33,792 bases of DNA from NCBI GenBank assembly GCA_001512865.1, contig LFSY01000012.1, forward strand, positions 3,141 to 36,932. The letters are read 5' to 3'. Source of the stretch: Rikenellaceae bacterium DTU002. Its GTDB lineage: Bacteria; Bacteroidota; Bacteroidia; Bacteroidales; UBA932. The notes under the pieces were generated by a model. The model made no database searches. It saw nothing but the letters and a program-made list of their open reading frames with translations, and was not told where the DNA came from. Positions 7,008 through 30,105 of the stretch are shown in pieces (within the stretch, counting starts at the first letter, position 1; every line of letters begins with the position of its first letter). The position numbers were made by a program, and so were the translations under genes.

Positions 7008-7602
7008 ACAGTACCGGGTTAAGAAGGGGATCGTTGTACATCTTCATCTGCCTGTAAAGTTTCATGAATTTTCTGCCGGACTTCAAATCCGTCAGCAGCT
7101 GGTCTATGGCCGTTGACAGATCATTACGCTGTTCGGTCAGAATATCCCATTTCTCCCGGCAGGAAGCAGCTTTGACTGAATCCGTCCTTCCCGACTCGAT
7201 CCGCATGTGGTATATTTTCAGGGACAGGATAGACAGACGGTCCACGGCCCAGGCTGGCGTTTCCGTATTGAGTGTGGCACCCTTCAGAAGCGGAATGCCC
7301 GAAAATTCACTGTAAAAGACCGTATCCAGCTTTTCAACCAGATCTGTCCTTTCCTGGTTGGAGGCATCTATCCGGCGCTTGATGCGTAAAGCCTCCTGCG
7401 GGTCTATGGACGGATCCCGTATCAGATCCTCCAGGTGCCATTGCACGGTATCGATCCAGTTTTTTTGGTACAGCAGACTGTCCAGAGAATGACCGGGAAA
7501 GGGGTCGGGACAGGCGGCATCCACGGAGTCCGTTTTGTGATAATCCCTTATGACTTTGTCAAACAGGCTGTTGCAATGTGTGCTGAAAGAAGAGACGTCC
7601 AT
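6991..7602 (-). CDS. DUF4254 domain protein
   Basis: This 203-residue, highly charged, mostly helical soluble protein has no signal peptide or membrane segment. Characteristic pieces are LLYQKNWIDTVQWHLEDLIRDP near residues 43-64, LKIYHMR near 127-133 and an E-K-W-D-I-L-T-E-Q-R-N-D-L helix near 149-161. I recognise it as DUF4254, a family of unknown biochemical function found almost only in Bacteroidota and often next to heptosyltransferases. Here it lies one base after the polyprenyl synthase stop and overlaps the GT9 gene by 17 bases. Coupled translation and a role in the same envelope-sugar or lipid-linked pathway are therefore plausible. No catalytic motif is evident. Confidence 0.85.
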   Translation of the reverse strand: MDVSSFSTHCNSLFDKVIRDYHKTDSVDAACPDPFPGHSLDSLLYQKNWIDTVQWHLEDLIRDPSIDPQEALRIKRRIDASNQERTDLVEKLDTVFYSEFSGIPLLKGATLNTETPAWAVDRLSILSLKIYHMRIESGRTDSVKAASCREKWDILTEQRNDLSTAIDQLLTDLKSGRKFMKLYRQMKMYNDPLLNPVLYGKGT

Positions 7603-7603
7603 A

Positions 7604-8575
7604 CTACCTAACCCTGTTCAGCAGACTTTGTATGTATTCTATAAGCAATCCGGTTCTTTCCGGGCGGGCTTCCAGGCCCTCGAGTGCCGCAATGGTTTTT
7701 CCCATGTAGAGGACTACTTGTTCCTGCGCTGCCTCCCTGACTCCCAGCTTGTTGTAAATCCCTATGATCTTTGCGACCCGCTCCGGGTCCTCCCTGTTTG
7801 TCAAGAGTCCGTTCAGTCTGACCAGGTCCTCCCCCGCAGCTTGTCGCAGCGCATAAGTAAGAAGCCATGTTTTTTTATTGTTGGCAATATCTGTGCCTGT
7901 CGCTTTCCCGAACACGTTGGGATCACCGTAAATATCCAGGTAATCATCCTGGATCTGGAAAGCTATGCCCAAAGAGATCCCAGCGTTGTACAGGTTGTTG
8001 ACAGCGCGGGGTGCAGCCCCTGCGCACAGGCCTCCCGTCTGAAGCGAACAGGCAATGAGCGCACCTGTTTTTTTGGAGATCATGTCTGCATATTCTTCCG
8101 CTGTTATGTAAGCCTGGTTTTCGTACTCCACATCCAGCTGCTGTCCTTCGCAAACATCCTCTGCCGCTTTGTGAAAAGCCTCGAGGACCAGGGGCAATAC
8201 CAGGGGCTCACATCTGCTCATATACCTGTATGCGAGCATGGACAGCGCATCTCCCGACAAGATTGCCGTGTTAATATCCCATTTTTTGTGAATTGTCTGA
8301 CGGTTTCTCCTCATATCAGCATGGTCCATCACATCGTCGTGTACCAGCGTGAAATTGTGGTACACTTCAAGACCGAGGGCCGGATACAGTACGGTAGGCG
8401 GCAAATTGTCAGAAAAGACATTGTAGCCCAGCAGGCAGAGCATGGGACGCAGTCTTTTTCCCCCGGCAGAGAGCGCATATTCTACCGGTCCAATCAGCCT
8501 GCTATGCCGGTAAGAGGCTATAAGACTTTGAATACCCTGGTTTACAAAGCCTTGTATTTCGTTTACAGTAAACAT
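7604..8575 (-). CDS. Polyprenyl diphosphate synthase (FPP/GGPP synthase type)
   Basis: This 323-residue trans-prenyltransferase condenses isopentenyl diphosphate with allylic diphosphates. The first aspartate-rich motif is DDVMD at 80-84, preceded by Phe75 five residues upstream. The second is DDYLD at 210-214. The substrate-binding GGKRLRP is at 38-44 and the KKTGALI loop at 168-174. An aromatic at the -5 position is usually read as limiting chain length to C15-C20, but the product is only inferred. The product would supply undecaprenyl or quinone precursors. The ATG at 8575 is preferred over one nine codons earlier because a TACCTTTG box ends four bases upstream of it. It is the first gene of the operon with DUF4254, GT9 and U32, and is divergent from rsgA. 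Confidence 0.92.
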   Translation of the reverse strand: MFTVNEIQGFVNQGIQSLIASYRHSRLIGPVEYALSAGGKRLRPMLCLLGYNVFSDNLPPTVLYPALGLEVYHNFTLVHDDVMDHADMRRNRQTIHKKWDINTAILSGDALSMLAYRYMSRCEPLVLPLVLEAFHKAAEDVCEGQQLDVEYENQAYITAEEYADMISKKTGALIACSLQTGGLCAGAAPRAVNNLYNAGISLGIAFQIQDDYLDIYGDPNVFGKATGTDIANNKKTWLLTYALRQAAGEDLVRLNGLLTNREDPERVAKIIGIYNKLGVREAAQEQVVLYMGKTIAALEGLEARPERTGLLIEYIQSLLNRVR

Positions 8576-8579
8576 ATTA

Positions 8580-8587
8580 CAAAGGTA
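8580..8587 (-). promoter_or_regulatory. -7 box of the polyprenyl synthase operon
   Basis: The minus strand reads TACCTTTG, a perfect TAnnTTTG match, ending four bases before the ATG at 8575. It argues against the upstream ATG at 8602, which would lie on the wrong side of the promoter. Confidence 0.65.
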
Positions 8588-8607
8588 GTCTTTTTTAAAC
8601 ATTTTCG

Positions 8608-8615
8608 TACCTTTG
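8608..8615 (+). promoter_or_regulatory. -7 box of rsgA
   Basis: TACCTTTG is a perfect TAnnTTTG match located 20 bases before the ATG at 8636. It lies 20 bases from the outward-facing box of the polyprenyl synthase operon, so two polymerases would compete for this 60-base intergenic region. Confidence 0.65.
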
Positions 8616-8635
8616 CACCCTTAAGCTCCGGATCA

Positions 8636-9601
8636 ATGGAACAGCAAGTCTTTCAGAATGCGACTGTTATCAAACAGACAGGGTCTCTCTACCGGCTTAC
8701 TTTTCTGCCCGGGTGGGAACCTTTCACGGCGATCCTGAGCGGCAGACTCAGATTGAAAGGTGACCACCTTACCAATCCCTTAGCCGTGGGAGACAGGGTA
8801 AACGGGTACTTGCAGGCGGCGGCCCGTCAAAATGACGCGGCTGTGATCACCGAAATCCTTCCCAGGAAGAATTACCTGATCCGGAAATCGGCCAATCTTT
8901 CACGTCAGGCCCATATCATCGCGGCCAACCTGGATTGGGCATACATCATCCTGAGTGCCACCGAGCCCCAGACCCCTTTTCCCTTCATTGACCGTTTCCT
9001 GGTTACCTGCCAGGCGTACCGTGTCCCTGCAACACTTGTCCTGAACAAGACGGACGAGCTGGACCTGGCAGACGGATACCGAAGCCAGGCGGCTCATTGC
9101 AGGAACATATACCAAAGGGCAGGATACGAAGTTCTGGAAGTCTCGGCAAGGACAGGTTTCGGAATGGACCTGCTGGCGGGCAAGCTGAAAGATAAAATAT
9201 CGCTGTTCTCAGGTATTTCCGGAGTAGGGAAATCAACGCTTGCAAACAAACTGGATCCTTCCCTGAACCTGAAGACCGCTTCCATTTCCTCGGCCCATCT
9301 CACAGGAAAACACACCACCACCTTTTACCAGATGCACCCCCTGGTTACAGGCGGGTATATCATTGACAGTCCGGGGATCAAAGGGTTCGGACTGCTGGAA
9401 ATGACAAAAGAAGAACTGTATCACTATTTTCCCGAGATCTTTGCCGCCTCGTCCTCGTGCCGCTTTAACGGCTGCCTGCATGCCGGAGAACCCGGCTGTG
9501 CCGTGAAGGAGGCTGTCCTGAAAGGAGTGGTCTCCACGGAGCGCTACGACAGTTATCTCAAGCTGTTGGATGATCCCGATGGCGGAAAATACCGTATCTG
9601 A
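8636..9601 (+). CDS. rsgA: Ribosome small subunit-dependent GTPase A
   Basis: This 321-residue late 30S-assembly GTPase has an N-terminal OB-fold (about 1-80), then the circularly permuted GTPase order typical of YjeQ/RsgA. NKTD (G4) is at 137-140, the P-loop GISGVGKST (G1) at 193-201 and DSPG (G3) at 244-247. The C-terminal zinc finger has the expected ligands C275, C280, H282 and C288 (C-x4-C-x-H-x5-C). The frame is open for over 1 kb upstream, but that part is antisense to the polyprenyl synthase and unrelated to RsgA. The start at 8636 gives the family's normal length and sits after the TACCTTTG box. The MATE transporter gene follows seven bases later and is probably co-transcribed. Confidence 0.95.
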   Translation: MEQQVFQNATVIKQTGSLYRLTFLPGWEPFTAILSGRLRLKGDHLTNPLAVGDRVNGYLQAAARQNDAAVITEILPRKNYLIRKSANLSRQAHIIAANLDWAYIILSATEPQTPFPFIDRFLVTCQAYRVPATLVLNKTDELDLADGYRSQAAHCRNIYQRAGYEVLEVSARTGFGMDLLAGKLKDKISLFSGISGVGKSTLANKLDPSLNLKTASISSAHLTGKHTTTFYQMHPLVTGGYIIDSPGIKGFGLLEMTKEELYHYFPEIFAASSSCRFNGCLHAGEPGCAVKEAVLKGVVSTERYDSYLKLLDDPDGGKYRI

Positions 9602-15851: not shown

Positions 15852-16785
15852 TATTATAGAAACGTTCCGCTACCAGGCAACGCATACGGCTGTATATGCC
15901 CGTTACCTGGAACTGCTGGGTGTTGATCCGCAGCAGGTTGAAATCCCGGAGAACATTCCTTTCCTCCCTATACGGTTTTTCAAAACACATCACATATACA
16001 ACCTGCCGGGTCAGCCACAGCATATCTTTACAAGTTCAGCCACTACGGGCATGGTCCCTTCCCGTCATCCGGTGGACAGCCTGGCACGCTACGGAAAAAA
16101 CGTGCTGGACATTTTCCGCTTTTTTTACGGGGAACCCGGCGATTATACCATCCTTGCCCTGCTTCCTTCATACCTGGAAAGAACGGGATCATCGCTGGTT
16201 TACATGATGAAAGAACTGATGGAGCGAAGCAGCGGAAAGGCAGACGGATTTTATTTATACGACCGGAAAGCTTTATACCTCCGACTCCTGGACCTGGCCC
16301 GGGCAAACCGTCCGGTCTGGCTTCTGGGTGTGAGCTTTGCCCTTTTGGATTTTTCAGCGGAATATACGGTCCGCCATCCCGGGCTGATCGTTGTGGAAAC
16401 AGGCGGAATGAAAGGAAGGGGCGACGAATTGTCACGTGAGGAACTGCACGGCCGGATCAGTAAAGGATTTCCTGAAAGTCAGATTCACAGTGAATACGGA
16501 ATGGCCGAATTGTTCTCTCAGGCATACGCTTGCGGGAATGACCCGTTTTTCAGGTGTCCTCCCTGCATGCAGATCCTGATCAGGAACCTGCAGGACCCGT
16601 TCCTGCTACAGCCCCATGGTGCCCGTGGGGGCATAAACATCATTGACCTGGCCAACAGCCATTCCTGTTCCTTCCTGGAAACGGAAGACCTGGGCTGCCG
16701 TTTGTCCGACGGCCGCTTCCAGGTCCTTGGAAGAATCCCCGACACTGAACGGCGGGGATGTAACATGCTTATTGATAAGCCTTAA
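15838..16785 (+). CDS. LuxE/acyl-protein synthetase family enzyme
   Basis: This 315-residue protein is related to the N-terminal adenylating portion of LuxE-type acyl-protein synthetases. The motif PIRFFKTHHIY is followed by FTSSATTGMVPSRHPV (the SSGTTG-like ATP loop, about 60-75). Later come VETGGMKGRGDELSREELHGRI and SEYGMAELFSQAYA (about 219-234), which match the adenylate-forming core. A short C-terminal segment contains ETEDLGCRLSDGRFQVLGR. LuxE activates a fatty acid as acyl-AMP and passes it to a protein thiol. Whether this enzyme does the same is inferred. The ATG at 15838 overlaps the GH3 gene by 14 bases. The 3' end overlaps the convergent DUF2723 gene by 17 bases. Confidence 0.85.
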   Translation: MKACDIIETFRYQATHTAVYARYLELLGVDPQQVEIPENIPFLPIRFFKTHHIYNLPGQPQHIFTSSATTGMVPSRHPVDSLARYGKNVLDIFRFFYGEPGDYTILALLPSYLERTGSSLVYMMKELMERSSGKADGFYLYDRKALYLRLLDLARANRPVWLLGVSFALLDFSAEYTVRHPGLIVVETGGMKGRGDELSREELHGRISKGFPESQIHSEYGMAELFSQAYACGNDPFFRCPPCMQILIRNLQDPFLLQPHGARGGINIIDLANSHSCSFLETEDLGCRLSDGRFQVLGRIPDTERRGCNMLIDKP

Positions 16786-19700
16786 AAAACGTTTCTATTC
16801 TTTCCGAATAAGACTCGGACAGCTCTGCATCTCCGTTAACCTTCAGGATATCATTCATATGCACATAGGTGCTGATGGCGGATTCAGCGTCAGAAGAAGA
16901 AAGAAACCCTCCTTTGTACGACCCCAGGAAATACCCTATCGCCTTATAAGTTTCTTCCAGGAAAGGAACGGCAATATCCCGGGCTTTTTCCGGTCTTTCA
17001 AGAAAATAATACAACTCGACGGTTTCCATGACACCCACTTCGTTCAAAGAAGGCTGCACCGCGTAGTTGAGCGGATAGCGCTTCATAATTTCCATGCCCC
17101 TGTCGAGGATCTTTTCTGCCTTATCCGTTTTGCCTTCCAGGATAAGAGCCTTGGCCACCTGGGAATACATCTGTCTGACAGCCTGCTGCACAAGAAAGAG
17201 GTAGGTGACATGATAATCCAGCAATACACCCGGTTCTTCCATCCTTCCCCAGCGGTACCCTTCCATCAGCAAGGGATATAATTTGTCCGTATCCATGTAC
17301 GGAACCTCGGGACGGATGTTTTCCGTCTTAAAAGGCATGAGCTTATAGGCCATTCCGTCATAGCGCAGGTAATCACGGATCCCGATGTTCAGGTCGCCTC
17401 CGCGGGAAACAATATATATGGGCCTGTCCCACTCGTAGTTGGCCAGCATATCCAGAAACATCATTTCCACCTTCATAAGCGTATGTTTGTTTTCCGGAAT
17501 ATCCAGATCCATGTATTCCGGGATCAGATGGGCATCCTTTTGAGGAACGATCCCGCAGGCAAGTACATTTTCCTTGTTCACGGGGATTCGTAATTTTCTT
17601 GCCGGAAGGTAATTGATCATGGTCCCGTCGTTCAATTGCAGCTTTGCCCTGGGATTTCCCATTACACTCACAGCCTGTATGGCGGGAACCCGGTCCGTAA
17701 CCCTTTCGTATACGGGCAGGATCTCATTGGTACCGTAAAGGTAAGATTCCCTGGGAATGGAAAACTTCACGGGTGCCGAGGTATACATCTTCCATTGCAT
17801 CTGGTCAATATACCAGTCTGTGCCAAGCAGGGATGTGTTCATCACCCTGACATCGGTCCTGATACCTTCCACTTCCTGGGCATACCACAGCGGGAATGTA
17901 TCGTTGTCTCCGTGGGTAACAATAATGGCATTGCAATCTTCACGGCAGGTGGTCAGGAAATTGAAAGCAAAATCTCTTGCCGTATAACGGCCGCTCCGGT
18001 CATGATCGTCCCAGTTCTGCGCCAGCATCTGGAAAGGCACAAACAGGCAAAGAGCCGAGGCAAGGGAACCGGCCAGGATGCCGGGCAGTTTTTTTCGCAA
18101 CAAGTGGTACAGGGCCACGACACCCAGGCCCACCCAGATGGAAAAGGCGTAGAATGAACCTGCATAGGCGTAATCTCTCTCTCTGGGCTGGTACGGGGGC
18201 TGGTTCAAATAAACCACAATCGCCAGACCGGTCAGGAAAAAAAGCAGGAACGTGATCCATGCATTCCGCCGGTCTTTTGCCGTTTGGTATAAAAGACCGG
18301 CTATTCCCAGTAACAGGGGCAGCATGTAGTAATGGTTCTTTGCTTTGTTTCCGGCAAGCATCTCGGGTGCCTTTGACTGATCCCCCAGCCTGGCCCTGTC
18401 CAGAAATCCGATTCCGCTCTCCCAGTTCCCCCTGACGGGATCTCCGGGGATGGTGCCCTGAATATCGTTCTGACGTCCTGCAAAATTCCACATGAAATAA
18501 CGCCAGTACATATAATTGACCTGGTAATCGAAAAAGAAGACCATGTTGTCCCCGAAGGAAGGCATGCTTTTTCCTTCCGAATTGACTTTTCCTTTCCCCG
18601 TGTTGTAAGAATCGTAGAAAGACCCGTGGGTTTCGCGTTTGCTCCACATACGCGGAAAAAACATTTTATCGGCATCCTTGTACAGGGGTACCTCGGGTCC
18701 CTTGACACGGGCGTACTTCCCGTCCATTTTTACATATTGCCTGGTATTCTTCCATGTGTCATAGGGAGAATTGTATATCCCGTCATACAGAAGCGGGGCC
18801 GCCCCGTATTGCTCACGGGCCAGGTATTTGTCGAGGGCAAACGGATTGTCGGGCTGGTTTTCGTTGGTTGGGGTTTTTGCACTGGAGCGGATCACGACCA
18901 TGGCAAACGAAGCATATCCTATAATAATGACCGTCAGACACAAGAGGATCGTATTCCACAGTACTTTCCCTTTCCGGTGTGTGGCAACAACCCCCCAAAA
19001 CAAGGCGGCAACCAGAGATACAACAAAGAACAACATCCCGCTGTTGTAGGGAAGTCTGAAAACATTGACGAACAAAAGGTCAAACCATCCCGATATCCTG
19101 GGGAGCCAGGGAATAATCCCGTAAAGAATGATCACGATGATGACCACCGATAAAAGAAGTGTCAGAACCGCCCCTTTCCAGGAGAAAGTGTATTTTTTGT
19201 AAAAATAAATAAAGACAAGTGCCGGGATCGTCAACAGGTTGAGCAAGTGGACCCCTATGGAAAGCCCCATCAGGTAGGCGATCAGCACGATCCATCTGTT
19301 AGCATGCGGTTTGTCGGCATTTTCTTCCCACTTCAGCATGGCCCAGAATACGGCGGCCGTAAACAGGGAAGACATTCCGTACACTTCTGCCTCTACGGCC
19401 GAAAACCACGCCGTATCGGAAAAAGAATAGACCAGGGACCCGACTGCCGCGGCCCCCCATATGGCAATGGCATTGCCCGTATTAAGACGGATCTTCTGTG
19501 TTTCAAGCAGACGTCTTCCCAAATGGGATATGGTCCAGAACAACAGCAGTACACAAAATGCCGAGGCCAGTGCACTCATGGCATTGATCAGCATGGCTGC
19601 CTGCTGGTTGCTTCCGAACATGGAAAACAGCCTGCCCAGCAACTGGTAAGTGGGATTTCCGGGAGGATGCCCTACTTCAAGTTTGTATGAAGATGCTATG

Positions 19701-19822
19701 AATTCACCGCAATCCCAGAAACTGGCAGTCGGCTCTATGGTTGCCAGGTATACTGCTGCTGAGATGGCAAAAACCACCCACCCTATCAGGAGGTCTGTCT
19801 TTTTGAATGTCCTTGTTTCCAT
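16769..19822 (-). CDS. DUF2723 multi-pass membrane protein (GT-C glycosyltransferase type)
   Basis: This 1017-residue protein has a dozen or more membrane segments in its first 580 residues and a C-terminal soluble part with helical, TPR-like repeats (about 900-1010). The N-terminal loop has the DUF2723 pattern FWDCGEFIAS (35-44) followed by GHPPGNP (51-57). A later loop has NQPPYQPRERDYAYAGSF, and the soluble part has GDNDTFPLWYAQEVEG. DUF2723 is related to eukaryotic TMEM260, reported to be a protein O-mannosyltransferase, and the acidic first loop resembles GT-C catalytic loops. A role in glycosylating secreted proteins, using a lipid-linked sugar at the periplasmic face, is therefore plausible but unproven. 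A TACATTTG box ends four bases before its ATG. Confidence 0.88.
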   Translation of the reverse strand: METRTFKKTDLLIGWVVFAISAAVYLATIEPTASFWDCGEFIASSYKLEVGHPPGNPTYQLLGRLFSMFGSNQQAAMLINAMSALASAFCVLLLFWTISHLGRRLLETQKIRLNTGNAIAIWGAAAVGSLVYSFSDTAWFSAVEAEVYGMSSLFTAAVFWAMLKWEENADKPHANRWIVLIAYLMGLSIGVHLLNLLTIPALVFIYFYKKYTFSWKGAVLTLLLSVVIIVIILYGIIPWLPRISGWFDLLFVNVFRLPYNSGMLFFVVSLVAALFWGVVATHRKGKVLWNTILLCLTVIIIGYASFAMVVIRSSAKTPTNENQPDNPFALDKYLAREQYGAAPLLYDGIYNSPYDTWKNTRQYVKMDGKYARVKGPEVPLYKDADKMFFPRMWSKRETHGSFYDSYNTGKGKVNSEGKSMPSFGDNMVFFFDYQVNYMYWRYFMWNFAGRQNDIQGTIPGDPVRGNWESGIGFLDRARLGDQSKAPEMLAGNKAKNHYYMLPLLLGIAGLLYQTAKDRRNAWITFLLFFLTGLAIVVYLNQPPYQPRERDYAYAGSFYAFSIWVGLGVVALYHLLRKKLPGILAGSLASALCLFVPFQMLAQNWDDHDRSGRYTARDFAFNFLTTCREDCNAIIVTHGDNDTFPLWYAQEVEGIRTDVRVMNTSLLGTDWYIDQMQWKMYTSAPVKFSIPRESYLYGTNEILPVYERVTDRVPAIQAVSVMGNPRAKLQLNDGTMINYLPARKLRIPVNKENVLACGIVPQKDAHLIPEYMDLDIPENKHTLMKVEMMFLDMLANYEWDRPIYIVSRGGDLNIGIRDYLRYDGMAYKLMPFKTENIRPEVPYMDTDKLYPLLMEGYRWGRMEEPGVLLDYHVTYLFLVQQAVRQMYSQVAKALILEGKTDKAEKILDRGMEIMKRYPLNYAVQPSLNEVGVMETVELYYFLERPEKARDIAVPFLEETYKAIGYFLGSYKGGFLSSSDAESAISTYVHMNDILKVNGDAELSESYSERIETFFKAYQ

Positions 19823-26324: not shown

Positions 26325-26395
26325 TGAGCTATGGTGTAATGGTAGCACTACAGATTTTGGTTCTGTCTGTCTAGGTTCGAATCCTGGTAGCTCAA
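26325..26395 (+). tRNA. tRNA-Gln (anticodon TTG)
   Basis: A 71-base cloverleaf. The acceptor arm TGAGCTA pairs with TAGCTCA. The D-arm is GTGTAATGGTAGCAC. The anticodon arm is ACAGA-TTTTGGT-TCTGT with TTG at loop positions 34-36. The T-arm is CTAGG-TTCGAAT-CCTGG, and A is the discriminator base. CCA is not encoded. A second tRNA-Gln follows seven bases later. Confidence 0.95.
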
Positions 26396-26402
26396 CAACG
26401 GA

Positions 26403-26473
26403 TGAGCTATGGTGTAATGGTAGCACTACAGATTCTGGCTCTGTCGGTCCGGGTTCAAGTCCTGGTAGCTCAA
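26403..26473 (+). tRNA. tRNA-Gln (anticodon CTG)
   Basis: A 71-base cloverleaf almost identical to the preceding gene, with about seven substitutions, all in the 3' half from the anticodon onward. The anticodon arm is ACAGA-TTCTGGC-TCTGT with CTG at 34-36. The T-arm is CCGGG-TTCAAGT-CCTGG. No CCA is encoded. It is probably co-transcribed with tRNA-Gln(TTG) and arose by tandem duplication. Confidence 0.95.
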
Positions 26474-26488
26474 CTTAAAACAATCAGT

Positions 26489-26500: not shown

Positions 26501-29404
26501 ATGAACAGACTGGTTGTCTCTCTCACCCTCACTTGTTGCCTGGTATTCGCTGCCGTTCCGGCCCGGGCGCAGTACTACAGCACCGGAGAGGATCCGTCCC
26601 GGCTGAAATGGAACCGCATTCAGGCAGGTTCTCTGCAGGTGGTCTACCCCAGAGGCCTCGATTCACTTGCTTTCCGTTATGCCTGGCTGTTGGAGCAGGC
26701 CGCTCCGCCGGTGATGTCAACCCTCGGGTCTTCCGCTCCATCGCTGCCCGTGATCATCCGGCCTTACAATGTAAACAGCAACGGCATGGTCGTCTGGGCT
26801 CCCAAACGTATGGAGCTGTTCACCACGCCTCCTTCATCGGGGACCATGCACAACTGGGAAAAACAACTTGTCGTGCACGAACTGAGACATGTGGCCCAGA
26901 TGCACAGGGCCGGGGAACATTTTTTCCGGGTTTTCGGATGGTTGTTCGGTCAGCAGTCGGAAGGGATATCGGTGGGATTGTATTTCCCCAAATGGCTTCT
27001 GGAAGGAGATGCGGTCATTACCGAAACTGTTCACTCATATGCGGGCAGGGGCCGGGAGGCTTCGTTCCTGATGCCATACAAGGCCTATTTTGCGGAAAAC
27101 AAATCCTTTTCTTATGACAAATGGCGGTACGGATCGTTCCGCCACCAGATCCCTGACCATTACGCGCTGGGATATATGAAGCTTTCTGTGGCAAGACTGT
27201 TTTCCGGGGAAGAGGCGCTGGGTCGCATTTTTTCAGATATCACCAAATATCCCTTCTGGCCTGTCATATACGGTCAGACTTTCAGAAAAAATTACGGCTA
27301 TTTTGCCGTCAAACTATGGGACCCTGCCGCAGAATATTACAAGCAGCTCTGGGAAAAGTCGGCCGCCCTGAAAGATCCGTTTGATCCCGGATCGCAGATC
27401 AACAGGCCAGTAAAAGACTATGTCAGTTACACGTCTCCTTCGCTGGTAGTGCATGAAGACGGAAAAGAGGTCCTGTATGCCGTGAAATCCTCACTGTCGC
27501 GGACTGCACGTCTTGTCCGTTTCCCGGAACAGGAAACCGGCCGGGAAGAGACGGTCTGCCTGCTGGGACACATCAATTCCTCCCTGAGTGCTTCAGGTCC
27601 GTTCCTTTTTTGGAGCGAGAGGGTGAGCGGTCACCGCTGGGCACATGAAAATTTCTCGGTAATCATGGTTTACAACGCCGTGACGGGAAAAAAAAACCGG
27701 CTTCTGTCACGTACCCGTTATTTCAACCCTTCTCCCAGCCATGACGGCCGGTGGCTTGCAGCCGTGTATTACCCGCCCGAAGGAGGGTCGGAATTGCACC
27801 TGCTGAATCCCTATACCGGGGAACTGCTTGAAAAGCACAGAATACCCGGGGGAGAACAGCTTACAGACATCGCCTGGTCAGACAACAACACCCTGTTCCT
27901 GCTGCTGACCGGGGAAGAGGGCACCGGCATCTGCCGGTTGGACAGACAGAAAAAGGAATGGGAAACGGTACTTGCTCCGGATTTTCACTCCCTGACGGGA
28001 CTGCAGGAAGCCGACGGCCGGCTGTATTTTAAAAGTGACTGCCGGGACAACACGGACAACATATTCTGCCTGGATCCGGAAACAGGGCGTATCATGCAGC
28101 TTACCGATGCAAGGTTCGGAGCTTTTGATCCCCTGCCCGCCGGCAATGACGGGGGCAATTACCTGTACTATGCCAACTATACCGCGCAGGGTTACCAGTT
28201 GACACGGCTTCATCCGGACAGTCTTCTTTGGAAACCCGCAGATTTCCGGGAACCGCAGGAGGATCCCTTCATTTTGGCTCCTTCCCCCGATTTCAACATT
28301 GATACGCTGCGGGTGCCTGACCGGGTGTCCTACCCGGTCAGGAAATTCAACAAGGTGCTGAACGCTTTCAGGATACACTCCTGGATGCCTTTCTATTTCA
28401 ATTACGACGATATTGAAAATTTCACTTTTCAGAAATACTATCAGACCATCGCCCCCGGAGTGACCCTCATGTCTCAAAACACCCTGGGAACGCTGACCTC
28501 TACGGCGGGCTATTCCTATCATAAGGGATTCCACGCCGGACACCTGAGAGTGGACTATTCCGGTTTGCTGCCTGTCATCTCCCTGAAGTTCGATATCAAC
28601 GACCGCTTCCGGACGCATACTTTTTTACGGAATGACGGTCAGGACTCCCGGTGGGTGTCTGACACAACGGGAACCTCCTATATGGAAGCCTCCCTGCATG
28701 CATACATTCCCTTTACATTCAACGGCCATGGCTGGCAGAGAGGACTGGTGCCTTCTGTAAGGTATCGGATCTCCAACGACAGCTATGGCATACCCGGTAC
28801 ACCTGCCGTACCCGTGAGCCAGACGCTGCAGGCGGGCATCCAGTACTACCAGGTGGTCAACAGGGCACCACGGGACATTTTTCCAAGACTGGGATTCGGC
28901 CTCAACGTACAAACCTCCTTTGCTCCCGGAACAGCGTCCCTTTTTACCGGAATCCTGTACCTGCAGGCCTACGGATACCTTCCGGGGATCCTGAGGAACC
29001 AGGCCCTGAAGTGGAATGTTGGCTGGCAGGAACAATGGATTAAGGACCGGTATTTATATCTGGGAACCTTTCTGGCCGCTCCCCGGGGGATCAACACCCG
29101 TATCCTGTCCCCGGTTACTTTTTCGGCCTCTCTGGACTATGCCATCCCCCTGTGGGCCGGAGACCCGTCGATCCCGGACATCATTTACATAAAACGTTTT
29201 CAGCTGATACCTTTTGCCGACTTCATGCAGACGCGGCAGCAAGACGGGACAAAAACCCGGTATTGGTCGGCAGGTGCAGACCTGTTGATGGATTTTCATC
29301 TGTTCCGCATTGGTGTCATGCTGACGGCAGGAGTACGGTATGCGTGGACATGTGAAAACAAGCACCATGTTGAATTCCTGTTCTCGTTCCCGGCCTTTAA
29401 TTGA
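26501..29404 (+). CDS. Outer-membrane protein: gluzincin-like peptidase, TolB-like propeller and beta-barrel
   Basis: This 967-residue protein begins with a signal peptide (MNRLVVSLTLTCCLVFAAVPARAQ, about 1-24). The first domain (about 30-300) looks like a zinc metallopeptidase of the MA clan: HELRH at 126-130 and WLLEGDA at 165-171, where Glu168 could be the third ligand. The middle (about 305-600) has repeated blades with phrases such as FNPSPSHDGRWLAAVYY and IAWSDNNTLFLLL, typical of a WD40/TolB-like propeller. The last 330 residues alternate aromatic beta-strands (GTLTSTAGYSYHKGFHAGHLRVDY, AGVRYAW) and end in Phe-Asn, consistent with an outer-membrane barrel. Domain borders are by eye. 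Its substrate and the side of the membrane exposed are unknown. A reading frame from 26402 runs through a tRNA and is not real. PnuC follows eight bases later. Confidence 0.8.
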   Translation: MNRLVVSLTLTCCLVFAAVPARAQYYSTGEDPSRLKWNRIQAGSLQVVYPRGLDSLAFRYAWLLEQAAPPVMSTLGSSAPSLPVIIRPYNVNSNGMVVWAPKRMELFTTPPSSGTMHNWEKQLVVHELRHVAQMHRAGEHFFRVFGWLFGQQSEGISVGLYFPKWLLEGDAVITETVHSYAGRGREASFLMPYKAYFAENKSFSYDKWRYGSFRHQIPDHYALGYMKLSVARLFSGEEALGRIFSDITKYPFWPVIYGQTFRKNYGYFAVKLWDPAAEYYKQLWEKSAALKDPFDPGSQINRPVKDYVSYTSPSLVVHEDGKEVLYAVKSSLSRTARLVRFPEQETGREETVCLLGHINSSLSASGPFLFWSERVSGHRWAHENFSVIMVYNAVTGKKNRLLSRTRYFNPSPSHDGRWLAAVYYPPEGGSELHLLNPYTGELLEKHRIPGGEQLTDIAWSDNNTLFLLLTGEEGTGICRLDRQKKEWETVLAPDFHSLTGLQEADGRLYFKSDCRDNTDNIFCLDPETGRIMQLTDARFGAFDPLPAGNDGGNYLYYANYTAQGYQLTRLHPDSLLWKPADFREPQEDPFILAPSPDFNIDTLRVPDRVSYPVRKFNKVLNAFRIHSWMPFYFNYDDIENFTFQKYYQTIAPGVTLMSQNTLGTLTSTAGYSYHKGFHAGHLRVDYSGLLPVISLKFDINDRFRTHTFLRNDGQDSRWVSDTTGTSYMEASLHAYIPFTFNGHGWQRGLVPSVRYRISNDSYGIPGTPAVPVSQTLQAGIQYYQVVNRAPRDIFPRLGFGLNVQTSFAPGTASLFTGILYLQAYGYLPGILRNQALKWNVGWQEQWIKDRYLYLGTFLAAPRGINTRILSPVTFSASLDYAIPLWAGDPSIPDIIYIKRFQLIPFADFMQTRQQDGTKTRYWSAGADLLMDFHLFRIGVMLTAGVRYAWTCENKHHVEFLFSFPAFN

Positions 29405-29412
29405 CCTGTATT

Positions 29413-30105
29413 ATGAAGTATCTTAAATTTTTTTCTCCCTATGAATGGTTTTTGCTGCTGACCATCGTCTCCCTCAATTTTGTGGTTTTCTTCATTACGG
29501 GCGAATGGGACATTTTATCTGCCATAGCTACCGTCTCAGGGGTCCTGTGCGTGGTGCTGGTGGCAAAAGGACATATTTCCAATTACCTCTTCGGCCTTAT
29601 CCAGGTCAGTTTATATACATACCTTTCCTGGGGAGTGGGCTATTGGGGAGAAGTAGCCCTGAACGGACTGTACTACGTTCCCATGCAATTCATCGGTTTT
29701 TTCATGTGGAGGAAACGTACGCGTGAAGGAAGCCGCACGCGGGTTACTGCCAAAAATCTTTCAGGAACACAAAGACTGGTACTGACCGTAGTCTGTACCT
29801 TCCTGATCCTGGGAGGCGGACTGGTCCTGAAGCATTACGGAGATCCGGCTCCCTATCTCGACTCGACCACTACTTTTCTGTCTGTCGTGGCTATGTTCCT
29901 GATGGTAAAAACATACGCGGAACAATGGTACCTGTGGATCACGGTAAATGTGGCGACCATTATCATGTGGAGCATGGCTTTTGTTCGCGAACAGGACGCG
30001 GGACATCTGATCATTGCGTCCATGTGGTGTGTCTACCTGCTCAACTCCATACACGGTCTGTTTGAATGGAAAAGAGCTGCCAAAACTGCGTCGCTGACAA
30101 ATTGA
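29413..30105 (+). CDS. pnuC: PnuC-family vitamin/nucleoside transporter
   Basis: This 230-residue inner-membrane protein has about seven membrane segments and PnuC landmarks: GLIQVSLYTYLSWGVGYWGEVALNGLYYVPMQFIGFFMW at about 63-101 and YAEQWYLWITVNVATIIMW near 167-185. PnuC classically takes up nicotinamide riboside for NAD synthesis. Relatives (PnuT, PnuX) carry thiamine or riboflavin, so the substrate is not certain. No thiamine or flavin riboswitch is visible upstream and no thiamine pyrophosphokinase gene follows. The ATG at 29413 comes eight bases after the outer-membrane protein stop, so the two probably share a transcript. A TTG at 29401 is an unlikely start. Confidence 0.88.
   Translation: MKYLKFFSPYEWFLLLTIVSLNFVVFFITGEWDILSAIATVSGVLCVVLVAKGHISNYLFGLIQVSLYTYLSWGVGYWGEVALNGLYYVPMQFIGFFMWRKRTREGSRTRVTAKNLSGTQRLVLTVVCTFLILGGGLVLKHYGDPAPYLDSTTTFLSVVAMFLMVKTYAEQWYLWITVNVATIIMWSMAFVREQDAGHLIIASMWCVYLLNSIHGLFEWKRAAKTASLTN

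Follow-up and report, generated by a model that had tools for sequence, protein, structure and literature searches.

A Bacteroidota protein predicted to join a gluzincin-like peptidase, a TolB-like propeller and a probably Omp85-like barrel

Does one polypeptide of Rikenellaceae bacterium DTU002 combine a protease with an outer-membrane barrel and, if so, on which side of the membrane would the protease work? The question is raised by an open reading frame (ORF) in a 33,792-nucleotide stretch of contig LFSY01000012.1 (positions 3,141 to 36,932 of the forward strand), the whole of which is called here the window; the source genome is a draft, made up of 146 contigs with 1,905,321 bases in all. 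The ORF lies at 26501-29404 on the forward strand, in a frame open from 26402, and encodes 967 amino acids and a stop. From the letters alone, a first-pass annotation had proposed an MA-clan metallopeptidase, a propeller and a C-terminal outer-membrane barrel, located at the surface or in the periplasm. We have little doubt about this order of domains, and the barrel appears related to Omp85, a point which the earlier annotation had missed and which changes the likely biology. The features needed for the argument are the following.

26501-29404, forward strand: whole gene, with signal peptide, gluzincin-like peptidase domain, propeller and Omp85-like barrel
26501-26569, forward strand: Sec signal peptide, residues 1-23, probable cleavage after ARA and before Q24 (from the sequence; helix at residues 2-16 and low confidence at 16-24 in the model)
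26573-27370, forward strand: gluzincin-like peptidase domain, residues 25-290 (AlphaFold2 model of the domain alone; zinc-peptidase matches by Foldseek and VIA)
26876-26890, forward strand: HELRH, residues 126-130, putative zinc ligands His126 and His130 and catalytic Glu127 (H, E and H identical in 97/97 sequences)
26993-27013, forward strand: WLLEGDA, residues 165-171, Glu168 being the probable third zinc ligand (97/97)
27377-28228, forward strand: TolB-like propeller, residues 293-576, probably six-bladed (TolB profile and VIA match)
28373-29386, forward strand: 16-strand barrel, residues 625-962, Omp85-like (strand list of the model; TamA matches; profile comparison with controls)
29081-29092, forward strand: PRGI, residues 861-864, in the loop between strands 11 and 12, at the place of the Omp85 L6 motif (model and alignment; equivalence to L6 partly presumed)

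The full-chain AlphaFold2 model of the 967-residue protein had a predicted local distance difference test score (pLDDT) of 91.2 and a predicted template modelling score (pTM) of 0.89. Three domains were confidently modelled, namely the peptidase (about residues 25-290), the propeller (293-576) and a 16-strand barrel (625-962), so that the structure prediction did not yield a chain lacking a closed barrel. The proposed joining of the three parts is borne out by this model together with the conservation of motifs and the fold and profile matches reported below. Compared as a whole with the Protein Data Bank (PDB) by phmmer, the protein gave two weak matches only (expectation values, E, of 0.024 and 0.044). 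A match to Dpp5 in NCBIfam (E 0.071) and weak Pfam matches to unrelated families were discarded as evidence, and TolB was ruled out as a name for the whole protein, the N-terminal domain having a peptidase fold and the chain ending in a barrel.

Conservation was read from an alignment of the 97 best-scoring sequences, which includes two apparent duplicates (L041/L032 and L042/L038). Four of the 96 homologues (L025, L034, L041 and L042), each at least 85% identical to another, were removed before building the filtered alignment A1 of 93 rows, whose 92 non-query rows are 21-72% identical to the query; alignment A3 (92 rows) omits L085, the letters of which disagreed between files. The predicted mature N-terminus, Gln24, is invariant in A1 and A3 and is not listed in a third alignment, A2. 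The cleavage site was placed by inspection of the sequence rather than by a signal-peptide program and is a probable one; cleavage by signal peptidase I before Gln is reportedly common in Bacteroidetes, and the invariance of Gln24 fits this habit.

The peptidase domain carries the strongest conservation, with 35 of its 268 columns at least 90% conserved, compared to 3 of 284 in the propeller and 18 of 343 in the barrel. Identical in all 97 aligned sequences are H126, E127, R129, H130, E168, D170, A171, a second Glu, E175 (27023-27025), and Gly-Arg-Gly at 182-184. A regular-expression count found HExxH with EGxA in 94 of the 97: two rows have EA or ES for EG, with the Glu kept, and one has a long N-terminal extension that was left unscanned. 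The same count gave 84 for the second Glu, which is too low because the expression stopped at an earlier EGxA in ten rows; the aligned columns give 97. HExxH and EGxA were also kept in 20/20 lower-ranked homologues of the order (hand-picked at E of about 1e-88 to 1e-72, weaker ones lying outside the sample) and in 20/20 homologues from outside the class, hand-picked from the matches of a phylum-wide search. A survey of homologues for loss of HExxH, as suggested earlier, thus turned up none. The second Glu is present in all 20 lower-ranked sequences and, outside the class, in 10/10 proteins with a short gap between the two motifs and 0/10 with a long one. Arg129 varies in these wider sets, with HEFKH, HEYYH and HESTH among the lower-ranked sequences and HELVH and HEFTH outside the class.

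The distance between His130 and Glu168, 37 residues in the window protein, had been a reason for reserve about the catalytic set. The long gap is real: by alignment it is 37 in 72 of the 97 sequences and 33-39 in all of them, and the separation of HExxH and EGxA is 36-37 in 20/20 lower-ranked homologues and 55 in half of the 20 from outside the class. It gives no cause for doubt, since HExxH and Glu168 are kept across the sets, which indicates a genuine catalytic set, the wide spacing being a trait of the family. Glu168 is the probable third zinc ligand, judging from its conservation and from the EGxA motif around it.

Modelled alone (residues 22-298), the domain reached a pLDDT of 92.3 and a pTM of 0.89. 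By their titles, the best 50 Foldseek rows against the PDB are all gluzincin-type zinc peptidases, namely collagenases, M1 and M61 aminopeptidases and leukotriene A4 (LTA4) hydrolase (best E 5e-4); the family numbers attached to these zinc-peptidase rows are in part our assumption. VIA placed the M30 enzyme lugdulysin first (Z 13.2, root-mean-square deviation, rmsd, 6.9, 231 residues aligned), with a collagenase at Z 12.3 (rmsd 3.7, 213 aligned) and M1 enzymes near Z 12. A caution applies to the whole range of 11.3-13.2 spanned by these 50 rows, in that a mostly helical domain can reach 11-13 through a common arrangement alone, and the tool itself warns under about 13. At the level of profiles, hmmsearch of the peptidase alignment against the PDB gave no match at E 10, and no Pfam peptidase family reached the window protein at E 1. 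DUF2268 (PF10026), a predicted Zn-dependent protease family, matched 14 of 92 family peptidase domains at E 1 (best E 1.7e-5), the window protein not being among them. We accepted the gluzincin fold because the fold matches agree on one enzyme class that shares the same motif. A gluzincin-like, MA-clan peptidase with a putative zinc site is supported by sequence and model, as the first-pass annotation had proposed from HELRH and WLLEGDA, and the conserved residues make it very probable that the enzyme is active. The known gluzincins of families M9, M1, M30 and M61 share the predicted fold, HExxH and the downstream Glu; they differ from the present domain in being only 9-17% identical to it in the best rows and in giving no profile match, on the side of solved chains, at E 10.

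The propeller matched the TolB profile at E 5.2e-17 and the TolB structure by VIA at Z 22.0 (rmsd 2.8, 237 residues aligned); designed Pizza6 propellers scored about Z 21. By analogy with TolB and Pizza6, it probably has six blades. VIA rows obtained with the whole chain span mainly this domain and have little bearing on the other two.

What kind of barrel follows it? Foldseek of the full model returned TamA among its matches (best E 3.6e-6), and the barrel-only TamA chain 8us4 gave a TM-score of 0.47 by target length. The loop between strands 11 and 12 carries R862 in 77 and G863 in 90 of 93 rows; PRGY is the commonest form (31/93), and the window protein has PRGI. We take RG(F/Y) in this loop to define the L6 motif of Omp85 proteins. 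The family also has PRWG ahead of PRGY, which resembles the YPR.G before RGY found in four BamA-like proteins of the same genome and of relatives (L098, L127, L128 and L132); other Omp85 loci mostly lack the pair. An HSW motif (626-628) is conserved at strand 1. For a profile comparison, 17 of the 27 Omp85 loci of relatives were retained (5 BamA-like, 12 others), leaving out six with wrong longest ORFs, L144 and L145 (under the Pfam cut-off), L147, and L149, which is too short. With hhalign the barrel scored 36.2 against this set, over 61 columns of its C-terminal part, compared to at most 17.4 in 20 column shuffles, 20.7 for the reversed profile, 11.5 for the propeller and 17.5 for the peptidase. 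An earlier, less clean Omp85 set gave 32.0 (probability 12.0%), and the RG motifs came into register with that set and with BamA alone.

Several results weigh against this kinship. The hhalign probability was weak, 28.6%, for the combined Omp85 set; the TamA-like proteins alone scored 30.2 (8.8%), and BamA alone 17.5 (0.3%), level with the controls. Compared with TamA, the model has modest TM-scores, and the rmsd is 8.6 for 8us1 and 8.8 for 8us4. No Pfam family, Omp85 included, reached the window protein at E 1, and a PF01103 search of its own genome at E 10 found three other places only. A POTRA domain is not visible in the model, where residues 577-624 contain one short strand and leave no obvious room for it. 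At least one POTRA is counted among Omp85 features in the available text of two papers (PMC11116518, PMC13067283); according to the part available of another, several Omp85 subfamilies have none (PMC4104836). Taking the RG motif, the TamA matches and the controls together, we regard kinship with Omp85 as highly likely. For want of a PF01103 match and of a visible POTRA we use the name Omp85-like, for what is probably a divergent relative, and do not file the barrel as a member.

The topology of the barrel bears on the location of the other domains. Stretches between strands have a mean conservation of 0.50 on the side of the N-terminal domains and 0.27 on the other side. Columns at least 80% conserved number 14 of 80 on the former and 3 of 104 on the latter, two of these three being the RG motif. 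The p-value of this difference, 2.5e-13 without L6, assumes independent columns and serves as an indication only. A peptidase and propeller in the periplasm would agree with conserved turns under the barrel and variable loops outside it. In PlpD, a protein joining an enzyme to an Omp85 barrel, the enzyme domain stays in the periplasm, as described in the available text (PMC11116518). Barrel topology and conservation, in line with this precedent, make it quite probable that peptidase and propeller lie on the periplasmic side. Of the two locations first suggested, the periplasm is thus favoured; the surface is the less likely.

How does this arrangement compare to known systems? PF00149 is presumably the calcineurin-like phosphoesterase family. 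Omp85-metalloproteases are assigned to it in the text available to us (PMC4104836) and, on that understanding, would not be the present family. The same source, Heinz and Lithgow 2014, describes WD40-Omp85 proteins among non-POTRA architectures and likens them to a BamA-BamB fusion. They share with our protein a TolB-like propeller ahead of an Omp85-type barrel; compared by description, they differ in that the available part describes only a WD40 N-terminus, with no mention of an MA-clan peptidase ahead. PlpD and other patatin-Omp85 proteins likewise join a hydrolase, at the N-terminus, to a 16-strand barrel at the C-terminus, with the enzyme periplasmic in PlpD and presumptively so here (PMC11116518, available text); PlpD has a patatin lipase and POTRA where the present protein has a peptidase and propeller. 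No description of the order peptidase-propeller-barrel was found among the titles and opening lines of abstracts that searches of the open-licence PMC literature returned, subscription papers and preprints being outside this scope. Propeller-Omp85 proteins have thus been known since 2014, and what is new is apparently the MA-clan peptidase in front of the propeller. Among separate proteins, TolB has a propeller and neither peptidase nor barrel; it is soluble and periplasmic, with an N-terminal domain of its own. BepA is a soluble M48 enzyme with a TPR domain and, unlike our protein, has no barrel or propeller. It is described as a periplasmic zinc metallopeptidase that acts at the BAM complex (PMC8423444, in the text available), and by analogy a similar role at the outer membrane may be proposed here.

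The family is widespread in Bacteroidota and apparently unstudied. One-sequence searches, a loose first look in which some genomes are incomplete, found homologues in 57 of the 59 genomes of its own GTDB family, in 175 of 295 of the order and in 116 of 296 sampled across the phylum, genomes outside the class included. Ten named relatives, 57-72% identical, come from Bacteroidales or Bacteroidetes metagenome-assembled genomes. All 20 places chosen outside the class contain an ORF matching the family profile, and these are of two kinds: ten proteins of 961-1000 amino acids with EGxA 34-37 residues past HExxH, and ten of 1030-1393 with HEFxH and EGxA 55 residues on. The latter (L152, L155, L156, L157, L158, L162, L163, L164, L166 and L167), whose barrel part matches poorly and which lack the second Glu, may form a separate subfamily. 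No family match was found in plasmids by tblastn. In one genome of the same GTDB family, two copies appear to lie in tandem (G008:C2:125496-131418; further matches start at 128485 and 130012).

The presence in a single polypeptide of an HExxH peptidase, a propeller of the TolB type and an Omp85-like barrel suggests work on outer-membrane or exported proteins. The protein would be exported by Sec and cleaved before Gln24; the predicted 16-strand barrel would insert into the outer membrane, leaving peptidase and propeller in the periplasm beneath it. There the propeller may bind clients or assembly machinery, as the TolB and BamB propellers bind partners, and the putative zinc site (His126, His130 and Glu168, with catalytic Glu127) would cut polypeptides at the inner face of the membrane. 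Outer-membrane or exported proteins would then be its clients, for quality control or for processing, and in effect one chain would do the work of BepA, BamB and an Omp85 barrel. Location, activity and substrate all being indirect, we see a barrel-anchored periplasmic metallopeptidase for this purpose as evenly poised between right and wrong, and hold quality control or processing as its job only tentatively. Counting against it, 120 of the 295 genomes of the order gave no match to the family, which is thus not universal, an absence in such searches not being proof; no report of a substrate, localisation or activity was found. In Bacteroidota the BAM complex is remodelled and the outer-membrane proteins are unusually complex, according to the available text of PMC12611786, and the main text of that paper, on the F. 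johnsoniae BAM structure, contains no word beginning peptidase, metallo, propeller or WD40, which speaks on the same side. If the proposal is true, a common but unannotated protein of Bacteroidota would be an outer-membrane protease held in place by an Omp85-like barrel; after PlpD, this would be another example of an enzyme carried on a scaffold of the Omp85 type, and it would bear on the removal of failed outer-membrane proteins in Bacteroidota. A bolder version, a Bacteroidota-wide proteolytic machine in which the propeller catches a client, the barrel receives it and a stalled client is cut, is speculative and rather unlikely.

The same parts could be read as an assembly or translocation factor, with the barrel acting like TamA or FhaC, the propeller guiding the client and the peptidase trimming it in passage. 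The Omp85-like barrel with its RG motif, the conserved HSW at strand 1 and the conserved turns on the N-terminal side speak for such a factor, and protein assembly or translocation was the function of those Omp85 members that had been studied earlier than PlpD (PMC11116518, available text). Yet the sequence is distant from BamA and TamA, no POTRA was seen, and no recurrent client gene adjoins the family in a survey of 21 loci (mostly about 7 kb on each side, clusters at E 1e-8); this alternative is a possible though unlikely one. Could the barrel instead export its own N-terminal domains, as in the type Vd idea, to display a scavenging protease at the surface? An enzyme fused to an outer-membrane barrel was first read that way for PlpD, and the nearest peptidase folds here include collagenases. 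The PlpD domain was nevertheless shown to be periplasmic (available text of PMC11116518), in the present barrel the N-terminal side is the conserved one and the far side varies as ordinary surface loops do, and a folded propeller with its peptidase seems unlikely to pass through an Omp85-like pore, so we think surface display improbable. A peptidase domain that binds without cutting, as a chaperone or scaffold, would agree with the silence of Pfam peptidase families at E 1 for the window protein, and activity is argued from sequence. Against it, Glu127 and the three putative ligands are invariant in 97/97, and HExxH and the Glu of EGxA persist in both further sets. To our knowledge inactive scaffolds seldom keep a full catalytic set, and for this reason a pseudo-peptidase is in our view quite improbable.

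The last alternative, put forward in the first-pass annotation, is a nutrient-acquisition unit with the transporter gene that follows, a neighbour not counted in the system:

29413-30105, forward strand: PnuC-type nicotinamide riboside transporter (PF04973, E 5e-47; TIGR01528, E 1.1e-45)

The first ATG of this gene, at 29413, does lie eight bases downstream, and the pair is kept in 9 of the 10 named close relatives, the tenth being cut at a contig end. The gene immediately downstream is a same-strand PnuC in 10 of 29 own-family loci; in one further locus PnuC stands on the opposite strand. Outside the GTDB family the adjacency was found in none of 57 loci (11 of these with less than 700 bases downstream), and the wider flanks of the 21 loci have PnuC in two only (L106 and L031), two other own-family loci, L124 and L125, being without it. 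The presence of uvrC in the flanks of 17/29 own-family loci suggests that the PnuC pairing is shared synteny, and the wider flanks have no common partner. As the adjacency is limited to the own family and close named relatives, the nutrient unit was rejected, and we give it hardly any credence. Besides the family itself, no gene cluster recurs in more than three of the 21 loci, which also withholds support from the outer-membrane quality control that we prefer; a conserved operon was not seen, and the neighbours give no hint of a pathway.

Upstream of the gene, two tRNA-Gln genes (26325-26396 and 26403-26474, anticodons TTG and CTG) stand six bases apart. Between the end of the second and the start codon of the peptidase gene are 26 bases, so that the promoter of the peptidase gene probably lies within or before the tRNAs.

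Two other genes of the window were recorded. The ORF at 7550-9601 encodes 683 amino acids, with an RsgA GTPase domain only at residues 436-615; RsgA proteins are about half as long as this ORF, and a fusion or a wrong start is possible. In the 1017-residue product of the ORF at 16769-19822, a TMEM260-like O-mannosyltransferase domain was recognised (PF11028, E 2.9e-72), and a link to protein O-glycosylation in Bacteroidota is possible.

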